From Clostridia bacterium (GTDB lineage Bacteria; Bacillota; Clostridia; Oscillospirales; CAG-272), in the NCBI GenBank assembly GCA_017398585.1, contig JAFQFS010000151.1, forward strand, positions 1 through 38,216: 38,216 nt of DNA, read 5' to 3'. Position 1 is the first letter of the stretch, and every line of letters starts with the position of its first letter. The position numbers and the translations under genes are program-made. Below, one piece after another: positions 27,286-35,316 of this stretch. Below the pieces are notes generated by a model, which searched no databases, was not told the origin of the DNA, and was given only the letters and a program-made list of their open reading frames with translations.

Positions 27286-28770
27286 TCAGCCTTCAACGAA
27301 GGTGTCGACGATTCTGGTGAGGAGCTTGTCGAAGACCTTAGCCTGCTTCTGATACTGGGAAGCGAGGTCGGTGTTGAAGGAGTTTGCCATGGTGTTGAGC
27401 ATGGAGCTGATGCCGATGCCGGAGAGGTAACCGATGTCGTAGCGGATGGAGCCGATGATGATATCGAGGGATGCTGCGGATTCCGCGTCACGGCTGACCT
27501 TACCGATCAGGGTTACGTCATAGTATGCGGGGGTGAGTTCGTTCTTGGATTCCGCGCCGAGGGTATCCATTACATGACCGGTCATGGTGTATTCCACATT
27601 GGTGATCGGAATGAAGTATACGGAGGCTACGTGCGGGTTGACGCAGTGGTAGTAATTTGCCTGGGTTTCGTCATACTTCGGCATGGGAAGTACGCCGAAC
27701 GGGGAGTCCATGGAACGCATGGTTGCAACGGAGTGAAGTTCGCCGTAGTAGAACAGGGACTGGTCCTGCTGATACATGGAGAACGCGGTTTCTTCGGTCA
27801 GACCTGCCTTGGACCAGCTCCAGCTGAGGTTTTCGTCGTACATGAGGGTCGCAAGCTTGTCGACAACGGATACGGCCTTTTCGGAATACAGGGTAACGGA
27901 AGGAACGTCGTTTTCATCCTTTGCAGCCATTTCAACGCCGCAGCCGATGAATGCGAGACCCATCATGTCACAGAAGCAGATGAGACCGTAACGGTCGTTT
28001 GTATCCATTACGCCGTCGCCGTTGAGGTCATCGGATACCATCGCACCCATCTCAACCATCTTGTCAACGGTCCACTTGCCGCTTTCCATAAGTGCGTACG
28101 GGTCTTCGATCTGATAGTCGCCGAGGATCGCCTTGTTGAACATGATCGCACCGATGGACTTCTTGTACATGGTTCCGATGTCACCGGTCAGCATATAGTT
28201 CTTGTGGGCGATGGAAAGGTCATTGATACAGTTCTGGTCCCACCATGCCGCGCCGAGATCGAGAGAACCCTGTGCCGCATAGTTGTTGAGTTCGGAGAGG
28301 AGACCGCTCTGGCTCATGGTGAATACCGCCATGAGATTGTTGGTCGCGAGCTGATATGCGTTGTCCTGTGCGGTCACGGACTGCTGGATCGCGGTGGAGT
28401 TGCCGTAAGCATCCATGTGTTCTACCTTGATGTCCACATTGAGCTTGGATTCCGTATTGAGCGTTCTGGTATAAACCGCGTCGTTGATGGCTTCACCGGT
28501 CATTTCTTCGGCATTCCAGTCAACGTCGCCCCATACGAAAACTTCCACAGGGTATGCGAGAACGGTAAAGGACTTGCCGTCGTAGTCGGTGCCTTCCGGA
28601 ATGTTTGCGGTGTAGCGGGTTTCTTCTTCCTTTGCGGAAGAGGTGTTGGCGGTGTCGGACTGAGCGGAGGGGGTATCATTGACTGCCGCTTCCCCGCTGT
28701 TGTCCGCACATGCGGTGAAAGTGGGGAGAAGAGCAGCCAGAATCAGGAGAAGAGAAAGTGTTTTCTTCAT
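27286..28770 (-). CDS. Extracellular solute-binding lipoprotein (ABC transporter type)
   Basis: A 494-residue secreted lipoprotein. A signal peptide MKKTLSLLLILAALLPTFTA ends at a lipobox cysteine (FTAC), followed by a Ser/Thr/Ala-rich tether. The body resembles family-1 sugar-binding proteins (GAIMFNKAILGDY, WTVDKMVEMG). It contains an EF-hand or dockerin-like loop, DLNGDGVMDTNDRYG, frequent in clostridial binding proteins. A GTG four codons upstream is in frame, but the ATG at 28770 starts a normal signal peptide and has GAGGTC in front. No permease or ATPase genes are adjacent, so its partners are elsewhere. Confidence 0.85.
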   Translation of the reverse strand: MKKTLSLLLILAALLPTFTACADNSGEAAVNDTPSAQSDTANTSSAKEEETRYTANIPEGTDYDGKSFTVLAYPVEVFVWGDVDWNAEEMTGEAINDAVYTRTLNTESKLNVDIKVEHMDAYGNSTAIQQSVTAQDNAYQLATNNLMAVFTMSQSGLLSELNNYAAQGSLDLGAAWWDQNCINDLSIAHKNYMLTGDIGTMYKKSIGAIMFNKAILGDYQIEDPYALMESGKWTVDKMVEMGAMVSDDLNGDGVMDTNDRYGLICFCDMMGLAFIGCGVEMAAKDENDVPSVTLYSEKAVSVVDKLATLMYDENLSWSWSKAGLTEETAFSMYQQDQSLFYYGELHSVATMRSMDSPFGVLPMPKYDETQANYYHCVNPHVASVYFIPITNVEYTMTGHVMDTLGAESKNELTPAYYDVTLIGKVSRDAESAASLDIIIGSIRYDIGYLSGIGISSMLNTMANSFNTDLASQYQKQAKVFDKLLTRIVDTFVEG

Positions 28771-28828
28771 AATTGACCTCACTGTGATTATGTTAATATT
28801 TTAATAAAATTATAAACACGCAAATTTT

Positions 28829-28900: not shown

Positions 28901-31900
28901 CTAAATTTCCACACTTCCTCGGTAAATTTCACAGGTTTCGCCGGTCATTGTCACATTTCCGCCGCTGTACCCGATCGTCAGTGCGCCGCCTTTGACGTAA
29001 ACGGTGATGTCTCCGGGACGGCAGAAGCCGTTTTCCACGGCAGCAACCGCCGCCGCACACGCACCCGTACCGCAGGCGTACGTTTCGCCGGAGCCGCGTT
29101 CCCAGATGTGCGCAACGAGAGTGTGATCATCGATGACCTGCACAAATTCGACGTTCGTGCGTTCCGGGAAGAGCGGATCGTGTTCAATGGCATATCCGCA
29201 GGACTCAAGGTCGGAGATAATGCTCGGGAATTCTTCTGTTTCGTGTGCGAAAATGACGCAGTGCGGGTTGCCCATCGAAACGCAGGTGATCTTATAGATG
29301 TCGCCCGCCAGTTCCGCGCGTGCCCCGACGATGCGGCCGGTGCGGGATTTCAGATTCACGGGAACCGCTTCCGGAGCAAATTGCGGCCGGCCCATGCTGA
29401 CCTTTGCGCGGATGACCTTCCCGTGCCGGGTGACGAGATGCGCTTTTCTGATACCGGAAAGGGTTTCGATCTCCATGTCGCGCTTCATGACAATACCGGT
29501 TTCGTAGAGATATTTCGCAACACAGCCGATGGCGTTGCCGCACATTTTTGCTTCGCTGCCGTCGCGGTTGAACATGCGGATCGCCGCATCCGCAGTACCG
29601 GACATGCCGGGTGCGTCCGGCGGAAGGATCGTGATGGTACCATCGCCGCCGATGCCGTAGTGACGGTCGGTAAAACTGATGGACAGCCCTTCCGGATTGC
29701 GGATGGGGGTGTTCATGCAGTCAAAGTAAATGTAGTCGTTGCCGCAGGTGTGCATCTTCACAAAGTCGAGTGTGACTTTGCCGGAGCGGAGGTTATTGAT
29801 GTCGACGAGTTCAATGCAGTTTTCGTTCCAGCGGCTCGCGATGCTGTCGGCGACGGCGTTTGCGGTATCAAGCGCGGTCAGACACGGGATGGCATGTTCG
29901 ACGGCGAGACGGCGGAGACGGACGCTTGCGTAGCGCGGATCCCTTCCCTTCGCAGAGGTGGACACGATGTAGTTCACAAGACCTTCGCTGATGAGTTCGC
30001 GCGGCGTGGTGCCGGGTTCATCGAGGTGAGAGACAGCGACCACTTTGACGCCGTGCTTGCGGATTGCCTGCGCGGTATTTTCGGTTGCGTAAATTTTGAA
30101 GCCGAGAGCGGCGAATTTCTTTGCGATCGGACCGATTTCGCCCTTGTCGGTATCGCGGACGGACAGGAAAACGCCGCCGTTTTCACGGAGCTGATACCCT
30201 GCCGCGCGGAGTCCCTTGAACAGTGCTTCGCCGAACGTCCCCGCAAGTCCGAGGACTTCGCCGGTGGACTTCATTTCCGGACCGAGTGCGGTGTCGAGCC
30301 CGCTGAGCTTTTCAAAAGAGAAGACCGGAACCTTGACCGCGACGTACGGCGAGGAAGGATACAGACCGGTGCCGAATCCCATGTCCGCGAGCTTTTCGCC
30401 GAGCATGCAGCGGGTCGCGAGGTCGACCATCGGGATGCCCGTGACTTTACTGATGTACGGGACGGTGCGCGACGAACGCGGGTTAACCTCGATGACGTAG
30501 AGTTCGCCCTGATAGATGAGGTATTGGATATTAATCAGCCCCCTCGTCTCGAGTGCGAGAGCGAGGTTGCGGGTATGGCGGACAATGTAGTCGGTCATGT
30601 CGTCGTCGACGTTCTGTGCGGGATAAACGGCGATGGAGTCGCCGGAATGGATGCCCGTGCGTTCGACGTGTTCCATGATGCCGGGGATAAGGATGTCCTC
30701 TCCATCGCAGATGGCGTCGACTTCAAGTTCCGTACCCATAAGGTATTTGTCGACGAGAACGGGGTTTTCAATGCCCTGCGCGAGGATAATCGCCATGTAT
30801 TCGCGGATGTCCGCTTCGGTGAAGGCAATGATCATGTTCTGTCCGCCGAGGACGTACGACGGGCGCAGAAGGACGGGATAGCCGACCTTTTCCGCCGCCG
30901 CGAGGGCTTCGTCCGCCGTCATGACGGTCTCGCCGACGGGACGGTTGATCCCGTAGCGTTCGAGAAGTTCGTCGAAACGTTCGCGGTCTTCGGCGCAGTC
31001 GATCATGTCGGGCGAAGTGCCGATGATCGGGACGCCGCACGCCGCGATATGGCGTGTGAGCTTGATGGCAGTCTGACCGCCGAACGCGACAACCGCGCCG
31101 ACGGGATTTTCTGCCTTGATAATGTTGGCAACATCTTCGGGAGTCAGCGGTTCGAAGTAGAGACGGTCCGCCGTGTCGAAATCGGTGGAGACGGTTTCGG
31201 GGTTGTTGTTGACGATGATGACGTCGTAGCCGGCTTTTTTCAGCGCCCAGACGCAGTGAACGGACGCGTAGTCAAACTCGATGCCCTGTCCGATGCGGAT
31301 CGGGCCGGAACCGACGACCATGACGGTACCGAGCGGGCTTCTGCTGTGCGAAGAGATGAACGCGGAAGCTTCGTCGTCCTCATCGTAAGTGGAATAGAAA
31401 TACGGTGTGTCCGCACCGAATTCCGCCGCGCAGGTGTCGACCGTGCGGAACACTGCGGGGAGTGTGTACGGGATGGTTTTGATGCCCGTCAGGCGGGAAA
31501 CCGCGCTGTCCGGGAAGCCGGTGAGCTTTGCCTGCTTGTACAGGTCGAAATCAAGGGCGGCTCCGGCCGCTTCGAGGGCATTTTCGAGATCGGCGATCTT
31601 CCTGATTTTCGTGAGGAACCAGCGGTCGATCTTTGTGATATTGAAGATTTCCTCGTTCGTGAGACTGCCGCGGCGGATCGCTTCGTAAACGAAGAAAATG
31701 CGCTCGTCGGTGCCTTCCGCAATGAGCTTCGGAAGATCTTCGGACGGGATTTCGCGGTATTTTGCACTGCCTGGGGAATCCATGCCGATGGACGCGCCGC
31801 GGACGGCTTTCATGAACGCCGCTTCGAAGCTGGGAGCGATCGCCATAACTTCGCCGGTCGCCTTCATCTGTGTGCCGAGCCGGCGGGTGGCGTAGACGAA

Positions 31901-32992
31901 TTTGTCGAACGGCCAGCGCGGGAACTTGACGACGATGTAGTCGATCGTCGGTTCAAAGCACGCCATCGTGGTGCCTGTGACCTTGTTTTCGATCTCGTCG
32001 AGGTTGTAGCCGATGGCGATCTTGGTTGCGACTTTCGCGATCGGATAGCCGGTCGCCTTGGACGCAAGCGCGGACGAACGGGAAACACGCGGGTTGACCT
32101 CGATGACGGCATATTCGAAACTGTCGGGATTGAGCGCAAACTGGACGTTGCAGCCGCCGGTGATCTGCAGTTCGTCGATGATGGCGAGAGCGGAATCTGC
32201 CAGCATGGTATATTCGGGTGCCGCAAGGGTCAGCGCGGGTGCGGCGACAATGCTGTCGCCGGTATGCACGCCGACGGGGTCGATGTTTTCCATCGAGCAG
32301 ACGGTGATGTGGTTCCCCGCGTTGTCGCGGATGACTTCGAATTCGATTTCCTTCCATCCGGCGATGCAGCGTTCAATGAGGATCTGACCGATCGGGGACG
32401 CCTGGATGCCCGTTTCGGCGATCCCGGCAAGTTCGTCCGGATCGTTTGCAATGCCGCCGCCCGTACCGCCGAGTGTGAATGCGGGACGGACGATGACGGG
32501 ATATCCGAGCCGTGCGGCGAGGTCGAGTGCACCGTCCACGGTGGTGGTGATATCGGAAGCGATGGTCGGCTGACCGATCTTGTCCATCGCCTCCTTGAAA
32601 AGCTGACGGTCTTCCGCACGATCGATGGTATCGGTCGCAACGCCGAGCAGACGGACGCCGTGCGATTCGAGGTAGCCGTCGTGTTCGAGCTTCATCGCGA
32701 GGTTGAGGCCGGTCTGTCCGCCGAGCGTCCCGAGAATGCTGTCGGGTTTTTCTTCCGCGATGATCCGCTTGATGACATCCTCGGTGAGCGGTTCAAGATA
32801 GATGCGGTCCGCCATCGCACAGTCGGTCATGATGGTCGCGGGGTTCGAGTTCACAAGGACGACCTCAATCCCCTCTTCCCGCAGTGCTTTTGCCGCCTGT
32901 GTTCCGGCGTAGTCGAATTCCGCCGCCTGTCCGATTACAATCGGACCCGAACCGATAAGAAGAACTTTCCTGATCGTAAAATCTCTTGGCAT
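28901..32992 (-). CDS. carB-dapF: Fusion protein: carbamoyl-phosphate synthase large subunit (CarB) + diaminopimelate epimerase (DapF)
   Basis: One frame of 1363 codons. Residues 1-1070 are a complete CarB: GSGPIVIGQAAEFDYAG (14-30), a first ATP-grasp half, a second half from GSGPIRIGQGIEFDYAS, and a C-terminal MGS-like regulatory domain ending near TASRWNEN-like sequence. Residues 1073-1363 are a complete DapF: KMHTCGNDYIYFDC, first catalytic cysteine Cys1151 (MCGNAIGC) and second Cys1307 (ACGTGACAAAV). CarB makes carbamoyl phosphate for arginine and pyrimidines; DapF converts LL- to meso-diaminopimelate for lysine and peptidoglycan. Only a few residues separate the domains. No Shine-Dalgarno precedes a start at the DapF portion. 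The Arg usual in CGNxxRC is Gly here. carA is not adjacent. AGAGGAGAG lies 7 nt before the ATG at 32992. Confidence 0.93.
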   Translation of the reverse strand: MPRDFTIRKVLLIGSGPIVIGQAAEFDYAGTQAAKALREEGIEVVLVNSNPATIMTDCAMADRIYLEPLTEDVIKRIIAEEKPDSILGTLGGQTGLNLAMKLEHDGYLESHGVRLLGVATDTIDRAEDRQLFKEAMDKIGQPTIASDITTTVDGALDLAARLGYPVIVRPAFTLGGTGGGIANDPDELAGIAETGIQASPIGQILIERCIAGWKEIEFEVIRDNAGNHITVCSMENIDPVGVHTGDSIVAAPALTLAAPEYTMLADSALAIIDELQITGGCNVQFALNPDSFEYAVIEVNPRVSRSSALASKATGYPIAKVATKIAIGYNLDEIENKVTGTTMACFEPTIDYIVVKFPRWPFDKFVYATRRLGTQMKATGEVMAIAPSFEAAFMKAVRGASIGMDSPGSAKYREIPSEDLPKLIAEGTDERIFFVYEAIRRGSLTNEEIFNITKIDRWFLTKIRKIADLENALEAAGAALDFDLYKQAKLTGFPDSAVSRLTGIKTIPYTLPAVFRTVDTCAAEFGADTPYFYSTYDEDDEASAFISSHSRSPLGTVMVVGSGPIRIGQGIEFDYASVHCVWALKKAGYDVIIVNNNPETVSTDFDTADRLYFEPLTPEDVANIIKAENPVGAVVAFGGQTAIKLTRHIAACGVPIIGTSPDMIDCAEDRERFDELLERYGINRPVGETVMTADEALAAAEKVGYPVLLRPSYVLGGQNMIIAFTEADIREYMAIILAQGIENPVLVDKYLMGTELEVDAICDGEDILIPGIMEHVERTGIHSGDSIAVYPAQNVDDDMTDYIVRHTRNLALALETRGLINIQYLIYQGELYVIEVNPRSSRTVPYISKVTGIPMVDLATRCMLGEKLADMGFGTGLYPSSPYVAVKVPVFSFEKLSGLDTALGPEMKSTGEVLGLAGTFGEALFKGLRAAGYQLRENGGVFLSVRDTDKGEIGPIAKKFAALGFKIYATENTAQAIRKHGVKVVAVSHLDEPGTTPRELISEGLVNYIVSTSAKGRDPRYASVRLRRLAVEHAIPCLTALDTANAVADSIASRWNENCIELVDINNLRSGKVTLDFVKMHTCGNDYIYFDCMNTPIRNPEGLSISFTDRHYGIGGDGTITILPPDAPGMSGTADAAIRMFNRDGSEAKMCGNAIGCVAKYLYETGIVMKRDMEIETLSGIRKAHLVTRHGKVIRAKVSMGRPQFAPEAVPVNLKSRTGRIVGARAELAGDIYKITCVSMGNPHCVIFAHETEEFPSIISDLESCGYAIEHDPLFPERTNVEFVQVIDDHTLVAHIWERGSGETYACGTGACAAAVAAVENGFCRPGDITVYVKGGALTIGYSGGNVTMTGETCEIYRGSVEI

Positions 32993-33388: not shown

Positions 33389-33709
33389 TTATACGCCTGC
33401 CGGTTCGGCTTCCGTTTCTTCGAGAAGTTCGGTTTCGCGTTCGGCTGCTGCGCGCGCGAGTTCTTCTTCGTAGGCGCGGATCACTTCTTCTTCGAGATGG
33501 CCGCGGAAGTCGGCATTGATCGGATGAACGATGTCACGGTAGGTGCCGTCGGGATTCTTGCGGCTGGGCATAACGATGAAGTTCTTGTCACGTACGCTGA
33601 TTACCTTGATATCGTGAAGTGCGAGCTGATCGTCAAATGTGACGGATACGATTGCCTTCATCGGCCCTTCTTCAAACAACTTTCTTACTTTGATATCGGT
33701 GATTACCAT
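33389..33709 (-). CDS. spoVG: Septation/sporulation regulator SpoVG
   Basis: SpoVG is a small nucleic-acid-binding regulator linked to septation, sporulation and cell-envelope control in Firmicutes. The 106-residue protein begins MVITDIKVRKLFEEGPMKAIVSVTFDDQLALHDIKV and continues NFIVMPSRKNPDGTYRDIVHPIN, all diagnostic. The C-terminal acidic tail (ELLEETEAEPAGV) is variable in the family. AAAAGGGG lies 11 nt before the ATG. It is a single-gene unit, divergent from murC and ended by a strong terminator. Confidence 0.96.
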   Translation of the reverse strand: MVITDIKVRKLFEEGPMKAIVSVTFDDQLALHDIKVISVRDKNFIVMPSRKNPDGTYRDIVHPINADFRGHLEEEVIRAYEEELARAAAERETELLEETEAEPAGV

Positions 33710-33839: not shown

Positions 33840-33891
33840 AAATGTGAATATCAATCTCCCACCACCACACACTCTTTCAAAGGATGGAATT

Positions 33892-35316
33892 ATGGCTTTA
33901 CCTAACACTCATTTCGGCGCCGATTACATAAACAACCTGCTCGACGGCAGCAAAAATATCTTCTTCGCCGGCATCGGCGGAGTCAGCATGAACGCTCTCG
34001 CCCACATCACTCACCTGCGCGGCCACCGTGTTTCCGGCTACGACCGGAGCAAAAGCGACATCACCCGCAAGCTCGAAGCGATGGGAGTCACCGTGTACTA
34101 CGAGTCTGACGGCAGCCATCTTAAAGACTGCGACGCGCTTGTCTACACCGTCGCAATGCCCGCGGACAATCCGGAATACGTCTATGCCGGTGAACACGGC
34201 ATCCCCTGCATCTCCCGTGCGGACTACCTCGGCTACATCATGACCGGGTTCAAAAACCGCATCGGTATCTCCGGCACCCACGGAAAAAGCACAACAACCG
34301 GTATGATCTCGCGCATCCTCACCAACGCCGGAGTTGATCCCACCGTGTTCAACGGTGCGGCAATGAAGGAATCCGGCACCGTGGACATCATCGGCGGACA
34401 TGACTATTTCGCGTTCGAAGCATGCGAATACATGGATTCTTTCCTTGATTTCAATCCGTCGGTTGCCGTTGTGCTGAACATTGAACTCGACCACCTCGAT
34501 TACTTCCATTCCATCGAACAGATCATCGAATCCTTCCGGAACTTCATGGCTCTCACAGGCGAAAATGGGTATGCAATTGTGAACCGGAACGACACAAACT
34601 GCATGAAAGCGGCGGAAGGCTATACCGGTACGCTCATCACCTTCGGACGGAACAATCCGGAAGCGGATTTTTATTCCGGGAACGAAGGCGAGTGCGGCGG
34701 CTATCCCGTGTTCGACCTGATGCACCGGGGTGAAAAGATCGCCCGCATCACCCTGCAGGTTCCCGGCGAACACCTCATCGCAGATGCCCTCTCGGCGTTT
34801 GCGGCGGCATCGGTCTGCGGTATTTCCCCGGAAAAGGCAGCGGAAGGTCTGGCAAAGTACGAAGGCATCTGCCGACGGATGGAAAAACTCTGTGTGACCG
34901 CGTCCGGCGCGGCGCTGTTCACGGACTACGCACACCATCCGACCGAAATTGCGGCGACGATGGGCGGTGCGCGAAAGATCTGCGGCGGCAGGCTGAATCT
35001 GGTGTTCCAGCCGCACACGTTCTCCCGTACGGCGGAACTGTTCGACGAATTCGTCGAAGCGTTCGCGGCGTGCGGCGCGGACGAAATCGTGCTGTGCGAC
35101 ATTTATCCGGCGCGTGAAACGAACATTTACGGAGTATCGTCCGACATGCTCGCGGAAAAGATCGCGGCGGCGGGAAAGGTCTGCTCTGTCATCCACACGT
35201 TTGAGGAAGCGGCGGCGTATGCGGACCGGATTTCCGGCGAAGGTGACATGATCCTCGTCATGGGTGCGGGCGACGTCATCAAGGTGGCGGAGATGATCGC
35301 GCAAAACGTTCGATAA
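33892..35316 (+). CDS. murC: UDP-N-acetylmuramate--L-alanine ligase
   Basis: MurC adds L-alanine to UDP-MurNAc with ATP, the first step of the peptidoglycan stem peptide. The 474-residue protein has the N-terminal Rossmann motif FFAGIGGVSMNALA (24-37), the P-loop GISGTHGKSTTT (125-136), NIELDHLDYFHS, and a C-terminal FTDYAHHPTEIAATM then FQPHTFSRTAELFDEF. The frame is open 16 codons upstream, but AAGGATGGAATT precedes the ATG at 33892. It stands alone, divergent from spoVG and ended by a shared terminator. Confidence 0.97.
   Translation: MALPNTHFGADYINNLLDGSKNIFFAGIGGVSMNALAHITHLRGHRVSGYDRSKSDITRKLEAMGVTVYYESDGSHLKDCDALVYTVAMPADNPEYVYAGEHGIPCISRADYLGYIMTGFKNRIGISGTHGKSTTTGMISRILTNAGVDPTVFNGAAMKESGTVDIIGGHDYFAFEACEYMDSFLDFNPSVAVVLNIELDHLDYFHSIEQIIESFRNFMALTGENGYAIVNRNDTNCMKAAEGYTGTLITFGRNNPEADFYSGNEGECGGYPVFDLMHRGEKIARITLQVPGEHLIADALSAFAAASVCGISPEKAAEGLAKYEGICRRMEKLCVTASGAALFTDYAHHPTEIAATMGGARKICGGRLNLVFQPHTFSRTAELFDEFVEAFAACGADEIVLCDIYPARETNIYGVSSDMLAEKIAAAGKVCSVIHTFEEAAAYADRISGEGDMILVMGAGDVIKVAEMIAQNVR

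Follow-up and report, generated by a model that had tools for sequence, protein, structure and literature searches.

The 38,216-nucleotide contig JAFQFS010000151.1 of a Clostridia bacterium (assembly GCA_017398585.1, CAG-272), which we call the window, carries on its minus strand a gene in which CarB of carbamoyl-phosphate synthase (CPS) is joined in one frame to diaminopimelate epimerase (DapF). This carB::dapF frame holds zero internal stops and zero N, and its parts are the following.

28901..32992, minus: carB::dapF fusion gene, from the ATG at 32992 to the TAG at 28901, 1363 amino acids
29828..32992, minus: CarB part, residues 1-1055, with two ATP-grasp halves, oligomerisation domain and MGS domain (Pfam)
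29876..30133, minus: MGS allosteric domain, residues 954-1039 (Pfam match)
29771..29827, minus: spacer between the CarB and DapF parts, residues 1056-1074, containing ELVDINNLR
28904..29770, minus: DapF part, residues 1075-1363 (Pfam, NCBIfam and structure match)
29540-29542, minus: Cys1151, first catalytic cysteine (Cys83 in C. glutamicum, Cys73 in H. influenzae), TGC codon
29525-29527, minus: Gly1156, at the CGNxxR loop position, Arg in nearly all relatives
29072-29074, minus: Cys1307, second catalytic cysteine (Cys221/Cys217), TGC codon

Both halves match NCBIfam equivalog models over their cut-offs: NF003671 (residues 1-1054, 1432.3 bits, cut-off 599) and TIGR01369 (residues 3-1049, 1390.6 bits, cut-off 1027) for CarB, and TIGR00652 (residues 1076-1361, 238.7 bits, cut-off 114.65) for DapF. 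A first-pass annotation of this DNA had read the single frame as a full CarB and a full DapF with both catalytic cysteines, and the model matches and the TGC codons of Cys1151 and Cys1307 bear this out. It was also right that no ribosome binding site lies at the junction: over residues 1035-1099, the 18 bases before the in-frame starts at residues 1078, 1080 and 1093 contain no Shine-Dalgarno-like word. An assembly or frameshift artefact was rejected because many genomes share the fused frame, among them G440 and G755, each of which is a single contig. As the first-pass annotation had supposed, we found no description of a CarB-DapF fusion in the open-licence literature, papers on DapF residues and structure included.

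The residues that contact diaminopimelate (DAP) are complete in the window: N1085, N1142, N1153, N1242, N1280, E1298, R1299 and T1309, which we paired by motif with N15, N74, N85, N159, N194, E212, R213 and T223 of C. glutamicum DapF (CgDapF). Alanine changes of these DAP-holding residues nearly abolish CgDapF activity, the C83A and C221A enzymes are nearly inactive, and DapF closes in a large movement when DAP binds (PMC5296763). The effectors of E. coli CPS work at its C-terminal domain, where Thr977 and Lys993 serve for uridine monophosphate (UMP), Ser948 matters for UMP and inosine monophosphate (IMP), and Thr1042 for ornithine (PMC6245113). Like E. coli CarAB, the window CarB fits the equivalog models over its whole length and keeps the ornithine-site Thr (T1039 for Thr1042) and several MGS positions, with T973 for Thr977 and S944, just before the MGS match, for Ser948; it differs in having H989 at the Lys993 position and an extra C-terminal DapF domain after MGS.

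An AlphaFold model of residues 920-1363 (MGS plus DapF, 15 rows) has a mean predicted local distance difference test score of 81.9 and a predicted template-modelling (TM) score of 0.63, with low confidence at spacer residues 1054-1070. The predicted DapF part has 9mro_A as its best PDB match (E 1.9e-31, target TM 0.89). For the relative arrangement of the two domains, the support from this model is too weak.

Distribution and origin of the fusion

The genus search found the fused frame in 11 of 25 genomes, the window's own included, and it is present in two separately titled series of metagenome-assembled genomes (MAGs), RGIG and SIG. In G003 a contig end cuts the gene, yet both domains stand in one frame. 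At the family level, about 61 of 196 genomes among the matches listed have a DapF match inside an open frame of at least about 800 amino acids that includes the spacer, and the order and class searches gave many further fused frames among the matches listed. Some of those in the order are longer, about 1500-1570 amino acids (for example in G262, G244, G316, G393 and G434), which may reflect a real additional part or merely an open stretch that arose by chance. A named collection yielded 14 fused among the 80 loci kept of 204 relatives; the named carriers are all Clostridia MAGs and include Candidatus Alloclostridium, Candidatus Ornithoclostridium, Christensenella sp. UBA7703 and Candidatus Pseudoscilispira. 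Recurrence in related genomes, which the first-pass annotation had proposed as a check, therefore extends from the genus to 21 family groups of the class.

For comparison we set 120 distinct fused DapF domains, taken from 10 named loci and from 110 genomes that span 21 family groups, beside 109 unfused DapF domains. The cysteine state had not been seen when 59 order loci and one class locus were picked, on completeness, contig context and how many DapF matches they had. The stretch from residue 1035 in MGS to Lys1079 in DapF has the same length in all 120 distinct fused proteins.

In a tree of the last 470 residues of CarB (139 rows), 122 fused rows and three long-linker fused rows form one clade (91 in the Shimodaira-Hasegawa-like approximate likelihood ratio test, SH-aLRT). 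The f26 proteins of G263, G293 and G331 (L328, L329 and L330), which have a longer spacer and stand outside the 120-protein set, have CarBs that fall inside this clade, so a spacer insertion is a simpler reading than a separate fusion event and repeated fusion is not needed. One unfused carB, that of G580 (L326), is nested in the clade on a long branch, its place unsure; no dapF was seen beside it, and a later secondary loss of the DapF part is possible. Outside the clade are six unfused CarBs of the same type (G227, G723, G921, G620, G674 and G718) and, set apart by a long branch, seven pyrimidine-type CarBs that include those of the carA-carB-dapF-dapL clusters of unfused congeners. The DapF tree is less clean, with 50 of 52 fused rows in a weak clade (90) together with eight rows counted as separate DapFs.

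In G674, carA, carB and dapF are separate adjacent genes with dapL 1.6 kb further on, the arrangement to be expected of a pre-fusion genome. A dapF was seen neither next to the G620 carB nor on the short stretch that follows the G718 carB. Relatives with two separate genes at this junction had been named in the first-pass annotation as evidence that would overturn it. Such relatives do exist, but within the genus the carB concerned is another paralogue, and G674, where it is of the same type, branches outside the fused clade, as expected of a pre-fusion state. A recent fusion of the congeners' adjacent carB-dapF pair was rejected on the same ground: the G016 and G018 carBs are the other paralogue in the tree, the remaining carB C-termini look alike, and the DapF rows fall in a separate supported set.

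The other CarB paralogue adjoins dapF and dapL at L139-L147, L183, L185, L194 and L195, some of these being purF-carA-carB-dapF-dapL, which puts a carB-dapF neighbourhood in two CPS lineages. Such a cluster and the fused gene are found together in the genomes G032 and G099.

Catalytic residues and genomic context of the fused proteins

The window domain shares with DapF its sequence family, predicted fold and DAP-contacting residues. What sets the fused domains apart, besides the junction to CarB, is the loss of catalytic cysteine: at least one is missing in 64 of 120 fused domains (the first in 63), versus 0 of 109 unfused. Position 1151 is Cys in all 109 unfused domains, while in the fused ones it is C in 57, A in 38, G in 14, S in 5, F in 5 and T in 1. 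The Cys1307 position is kept in 117 of 120, and in 61 of the 64 domains that we call cysteine-less. The pocket of these 64 is largely preserved, with N1142, N1242, N1280, E1298 and R1299 each in 64, T1309 in 63, N1153 in 62 and N1085 in 56 (Asp in the other 8); residue 1301 is Asn in 45 of 64 versus 2 of the 56 intact domains. The first catalytic cysteine has probably been lost many times, with the fold, the spacer and the residues holding the ends of DAP retained.

The tree of fused domains contains one cysteine-less clade of 42 rows (support 100) with a median pairwise identity of 62 %, branch lengths summing to 13.95 substitutions per site and Cys1307 in 42 of 42. Among close relatives that lack the cysteine, nine pairs give a ratio of non-synonymous to silent change (dN/dS) of 0.014-0.123 for the DapF part, a sign of strong purifying selection; this is a rough estimate by the Nei-Gojobori method in which the silent distance exceeds 1 in four pairs; a tenth pair, G248/G294, is saturated. 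Among the window and its two nearest relatives the ratio is 0.105-0.141 for DapF and 0.033-0.046 for the last 490 CarB residues, so in this group DapF is under selection but evolves faster. The window's clade (11 rows, support 100) has both cysteines; it also has Gly1156 in place of the nearly invariant loop Arg, which 113 of 120 fused and all 109 unfused domains carry, and further substitutions where unfused DapF is conserved. When pocket columns were compared with all columns, 10 of 100,000 random sets were as low.

We searched 80 of the 110 genomes, namely 79 with at least 90 % completeness and the window's genome, for another source of meso-DAP, counting a meso-DAP dehydrogenase (Ddh) or any separate DapF over the model cut-off. 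Such a source is present in 50 of 50 genomes with a cysteine-less fused domain. Among the 30 genomes whose fused domain has both cysteines, at least one such source is present in 20 and absent from 10 (G078, G216, G240, G275, G307, G341, G466, G468, G472 and G518). Because these ten lack both kinds of source, their fused protein should be an active epimerase. At L266, L267 and L268 (G426, G523 and G392) a second, separate dapF lies downstream of carB::dapF on the same strand, directly after the fusion in G426 and 2-3 kb away in the other two.

Gene context was counted at 39 fused loci that either show at least about 0.9 kb of upstream sequence or have argF nearer than that; L025-L028, whose sequences are counted under other loci, and L334 were dropped for having no entry in the residue table. 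Upstream argF, often with argD and argB, is found in 17 of the 39, or in 15 of 37 without G465 and G269, which were counted because argF was seen despite little upstream sequence and so favour argF. All 17 are cysteine-less. Of the 22 loci without argF, 21 have both cysteines and one (G058) is cysteine-less. In the largest cysteine-less clade the gene sits in arginine operons wherever enough upstream sequence is seen. In some bacteria ArgD can work in arginine as well as in DAP synthesis, which is one possible reason for arginine and DAP functions to share an operon; the match of the neighbouring ArgD to the succinyldiaminopimelate model is below its cut-off.

The effector sites of CarB differ between the intact and the cysteine-less fused proteins. 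Lys is found at the Lys993 position in 45 of 56 intact versus 32 of 64 cysteine-less proteins, and at the Lys954 position, which we take to have a role in UMP control, in 52 of 56 versus 29 of 64. The ornithine-site Thr1042 is kept by all 56 intact and by 62 of the 64 cysteine-less proteins. From the lysine losses and the kept Thr, the cysteine-less group looks to have a CPS specialised for arginine, in which nucleotide control is weakened and the ornithine site retained. The fusion, its distribution, the missing cysteine, the kept pocket and spacer, the arginine operon context and the missing UMP-site lysines of roughly half the cysteine-less proteins are read directly from sequence.

The window's own genome (178 contigs, 73.6 % complete) has both other sources of meso-DAP: a Ddh on contig C102 (441.8 bits) and a separate dapF on C153 that is 47 % identical to the fused domain, with both catalytic motifs readable. 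DapL gave four matches, none over the cut-off. There is no carA adjoining the fusion gene, and two elsewhere. One lies on C99 in a pyrimidine operon of dihydroorotase, carA, an unfused carB, an electron-transfer-like subunit of dihydroorotate dehydrogenase (below its model cut-offs), dihydroorotate dehydrogenase and orotidine-phosphate decarboxylase. The second (L206:4961-6028, G000 C17) has no carB beside it and is the likely, predicted partner of the fused CarB. The separate dapF and the carA that the first-pass annotation had suggested looking for are thus both in the genome, and since the C99 operon has its own unfused carAB, the fused CarB is the other CPS found in this organism.

Possible roles of the attached DapF domain

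On balance we lean towards the reading that an active fused epimerase repeatedly became catalytically dead and turned into a regulatory domain, probably DAP-binding, of an arginine-type CPS. The loss of activity, the ligand, and the direction and sign of control are what we infer. A carA-carB-dapF cluster, still unfused in G674, would have lost the carB stop once, early in a large part of the class Clostridia, giving a single carB::dapF gene. The attached domain would at first have been a working diaminopimelate epimerase, and in some genomes may still be the only meso-DAP source among those searched. In genomes with a separate DapF or a meso-DAP dehydrogenase as another source, the first catalytic cysteine would have been dropped, and the DapF domain would serve as an allosteric arm that binds a ligand and is attached to the C-terminal regulatory end of CarB. 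DAP binding would close its two lobes, as in ordinary DapF, and change CPS activity or oligomer state, with the outcome that the arginine branch is tuned to the supply of DAP and lysine. A two-lobed, DAP-closing domain directly after the allosteric domain of CarB, at a constant distance and in the region through which CPS is usually regulated, is well placed to be a sensor. In its most specific form, we hypothesize a new class of CPS that senses amino acids: the DapF-derived pseudo-epimerase on CarB would bind DAP and gate carbamoyl phosphate for arginine in place of nucleotide control, so that the level of cell-wall and lysine precursors would directly set the flux into the arginine branch; this we offer tentatively, at clearly less than an even chance. 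The window's own copy, judged by its two retained cysteines, may be bifunctional.

Parts of this proposal have precedents. E. coli DapF regulates RppH without catalysis, the inactive DapF(C73A,C217A) still activating it; there the two are separate proteins, the target is an RNA 5'-end hydrolase, and the part of the paper available to us mentions no ligand role (PMC4227774). Human CPS1 is switched on by N-acetylglutamate, an amino-acid-type effector acting on CPS through the C-terminal domain; it has no DapF domain and the effector binds the C-terminal domain of CPS itself (PMC4655335). The first-pass annotation had suggested that DapF might be regulated through MGS. Such control is possible, but lost catalysis with a kept pocket points the opposite way, to the DapF domain acting on CarB.

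Several observations weigh against a DAP-sensing role. The association of cysteine state with other meso-DAP sources (Fisher p 1.8e-5) ignores kinship, and one old clade supplies 42 of the 63 domains that lack Cys1151; a tree-aware test of independent pairs for the same association found 2 supported pairs only and has no power. The cysteines of the separate DapF were read in 13 of the 43 genomes having one, and were intact in all 13. All 17 argF loci are rows of the 42-row clade and therefore form one evolutionary association. The best tree of fused domains needs 13 changes of cysteine state, of which the starred branches force only 2. Set against columns near-invariant in unfused DapF, 34,282 of 100,000 random sets were as low as the pocket columns; the pocket is no better kept than comparable columns, so a structural role would also preserve much of the domain. 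The second cysteine, retained in 61 of 64, is needless for a pure binding domain, and the window's own clade keeps both cysteines and has no argF near. With these points counted, we favour a sensor over a scaffold, a bifunctional enzyme or new chemistry at somewhat better than even odds.

One alternative explanation is a plain bifunctional enzyme, a normal working epimerase that stays with CarB so that the two are expressed together and that decays where another meso-DAP route is acquired. The window copy with both cysteines fits this account, as do the 10 of 30 intact-cysteine genomes without Ddh over cut-off or a separate DapF, where the fused domain should supply meso-DAP. Decay fits poorly with cysteine-less domains that keep pocket, fold and spacer over the 13.95 substitutions per site of the 42-row clade, and with their low dN/dS, and we consider this explanation unlikely.

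Alternatively the DapF domain may be a structural scaffold that stabilises or oligomerises CPS with no ligand, like the inactive dihydroorotase in some aspartate transcarbamoylases (ATCases) (PMC7053772; PMC6022934). DapF is a dimer (PMC5296763), and the pocket columns being no more conserved than comparable ones would suit such a role; the DAP-holding equivalents N1142, N1242, N1280 and R1299, invariant in all 64 cysteine-less domains, speak against it, and we regard a scaffold as quite improbable. The fungal CPS-ATCase, and ATCase with inactive dihydroorotase, are alike in that a CPS or ATCase keeps a dead enzyme domain (PMC6022934), but the dead domain there belongs to the same pathway, whereas DapF belongs to lysine and peptidoglycan synthesis. 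In CAD-type pyrimidine CPS fusions the partner is the next enzyme of the same pathway, a pattern that the DapF partner of the window does not follow.

A changed chemistry, with the one base left (Cys1307) catalysing another amino-acid reaction as in DapF-like enzymes that act on histidine (PMC11602996) or O-ureidoserine (7vdy, by entry name), could draw on the Cys1307 kept in 61 of 64 and on Asn at 1301 (45 of 64 cysteine-less versus 2 of 56 intact), but is very improbable given that the residue replacing Cys1151 varies (A, G, S, F, T), which is not suggestive of a new catalytic residue, and that the DAP-recognition residues are unchanged.

Two further explanations come from the first-pass annotation. 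A neutral gene merger is disfavoured by the one origin in the CarB tree, the spacer constant in 120 of 120, the low dN/dS and the spread over 21 family groups. Dosage coupling of nucleotide and cell-wall precursors fits poorly because the fused CarB is the other CPS, apart from the pyrimidine operon with its own unfused carAB, and lies downstream of argF in 17 relatives.

If true, the proposed regulation would be a direct protein-level link from peptidoglycan and lysine precursors to arginine or pyrimidine supply, in bacteria of many gut metagenomes. The fused proteins would also be a natural series from active to probably inactive domain on one scaffold, along which one could test, stage by stage, how an enzyme turns into an allosteric domain. 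DapF is regarded as a drug target (PMC5296763); in genomes where no meso-DAP source other than the fused protein was found, the effect would come through an unusual enzyme. Should the cysteine-less domains be inactive, annotation that reads DAP synthesis from a DapF match would err for roughly half of the fused proteins in this comparison.

Neighbouring genes and other DapF fusions

Around the fusion, the window shows the following genes.

33389..33709, minus: spoVG, the next gene upstream of the fusion, about 0.4 kb away (PF04026)
33844..35316, plus: divergent Mur ligase gene beyond spoVG (Pfam), presumably MurC-like

Both are recurrent neighbours within the window's clade. The context of the window gene is spoVG and a Mur ligase, not an arginine operon, and argF of this genome is on C167, away from the fusion. 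Downstream, a frame of 498 amino acids (27289-28782, minus) has no Pfam match at E 1e-5.

DapF is joined to other partners as well. The separate DapF of G004 and G017 (L152, L154) is itself fused, with an N-terminal 2-thiouracil desulfurase domain (PF04463), and the second DapF of G011 (L157) resembles these by its first residues. In G059 DapF shares a frame of 794 amino acids (L189:2547-4928) with a cell-wall enzyme, a Mur ligase (PF01225, PF08245, PF02875), which makes this another kind of DapF fusion.

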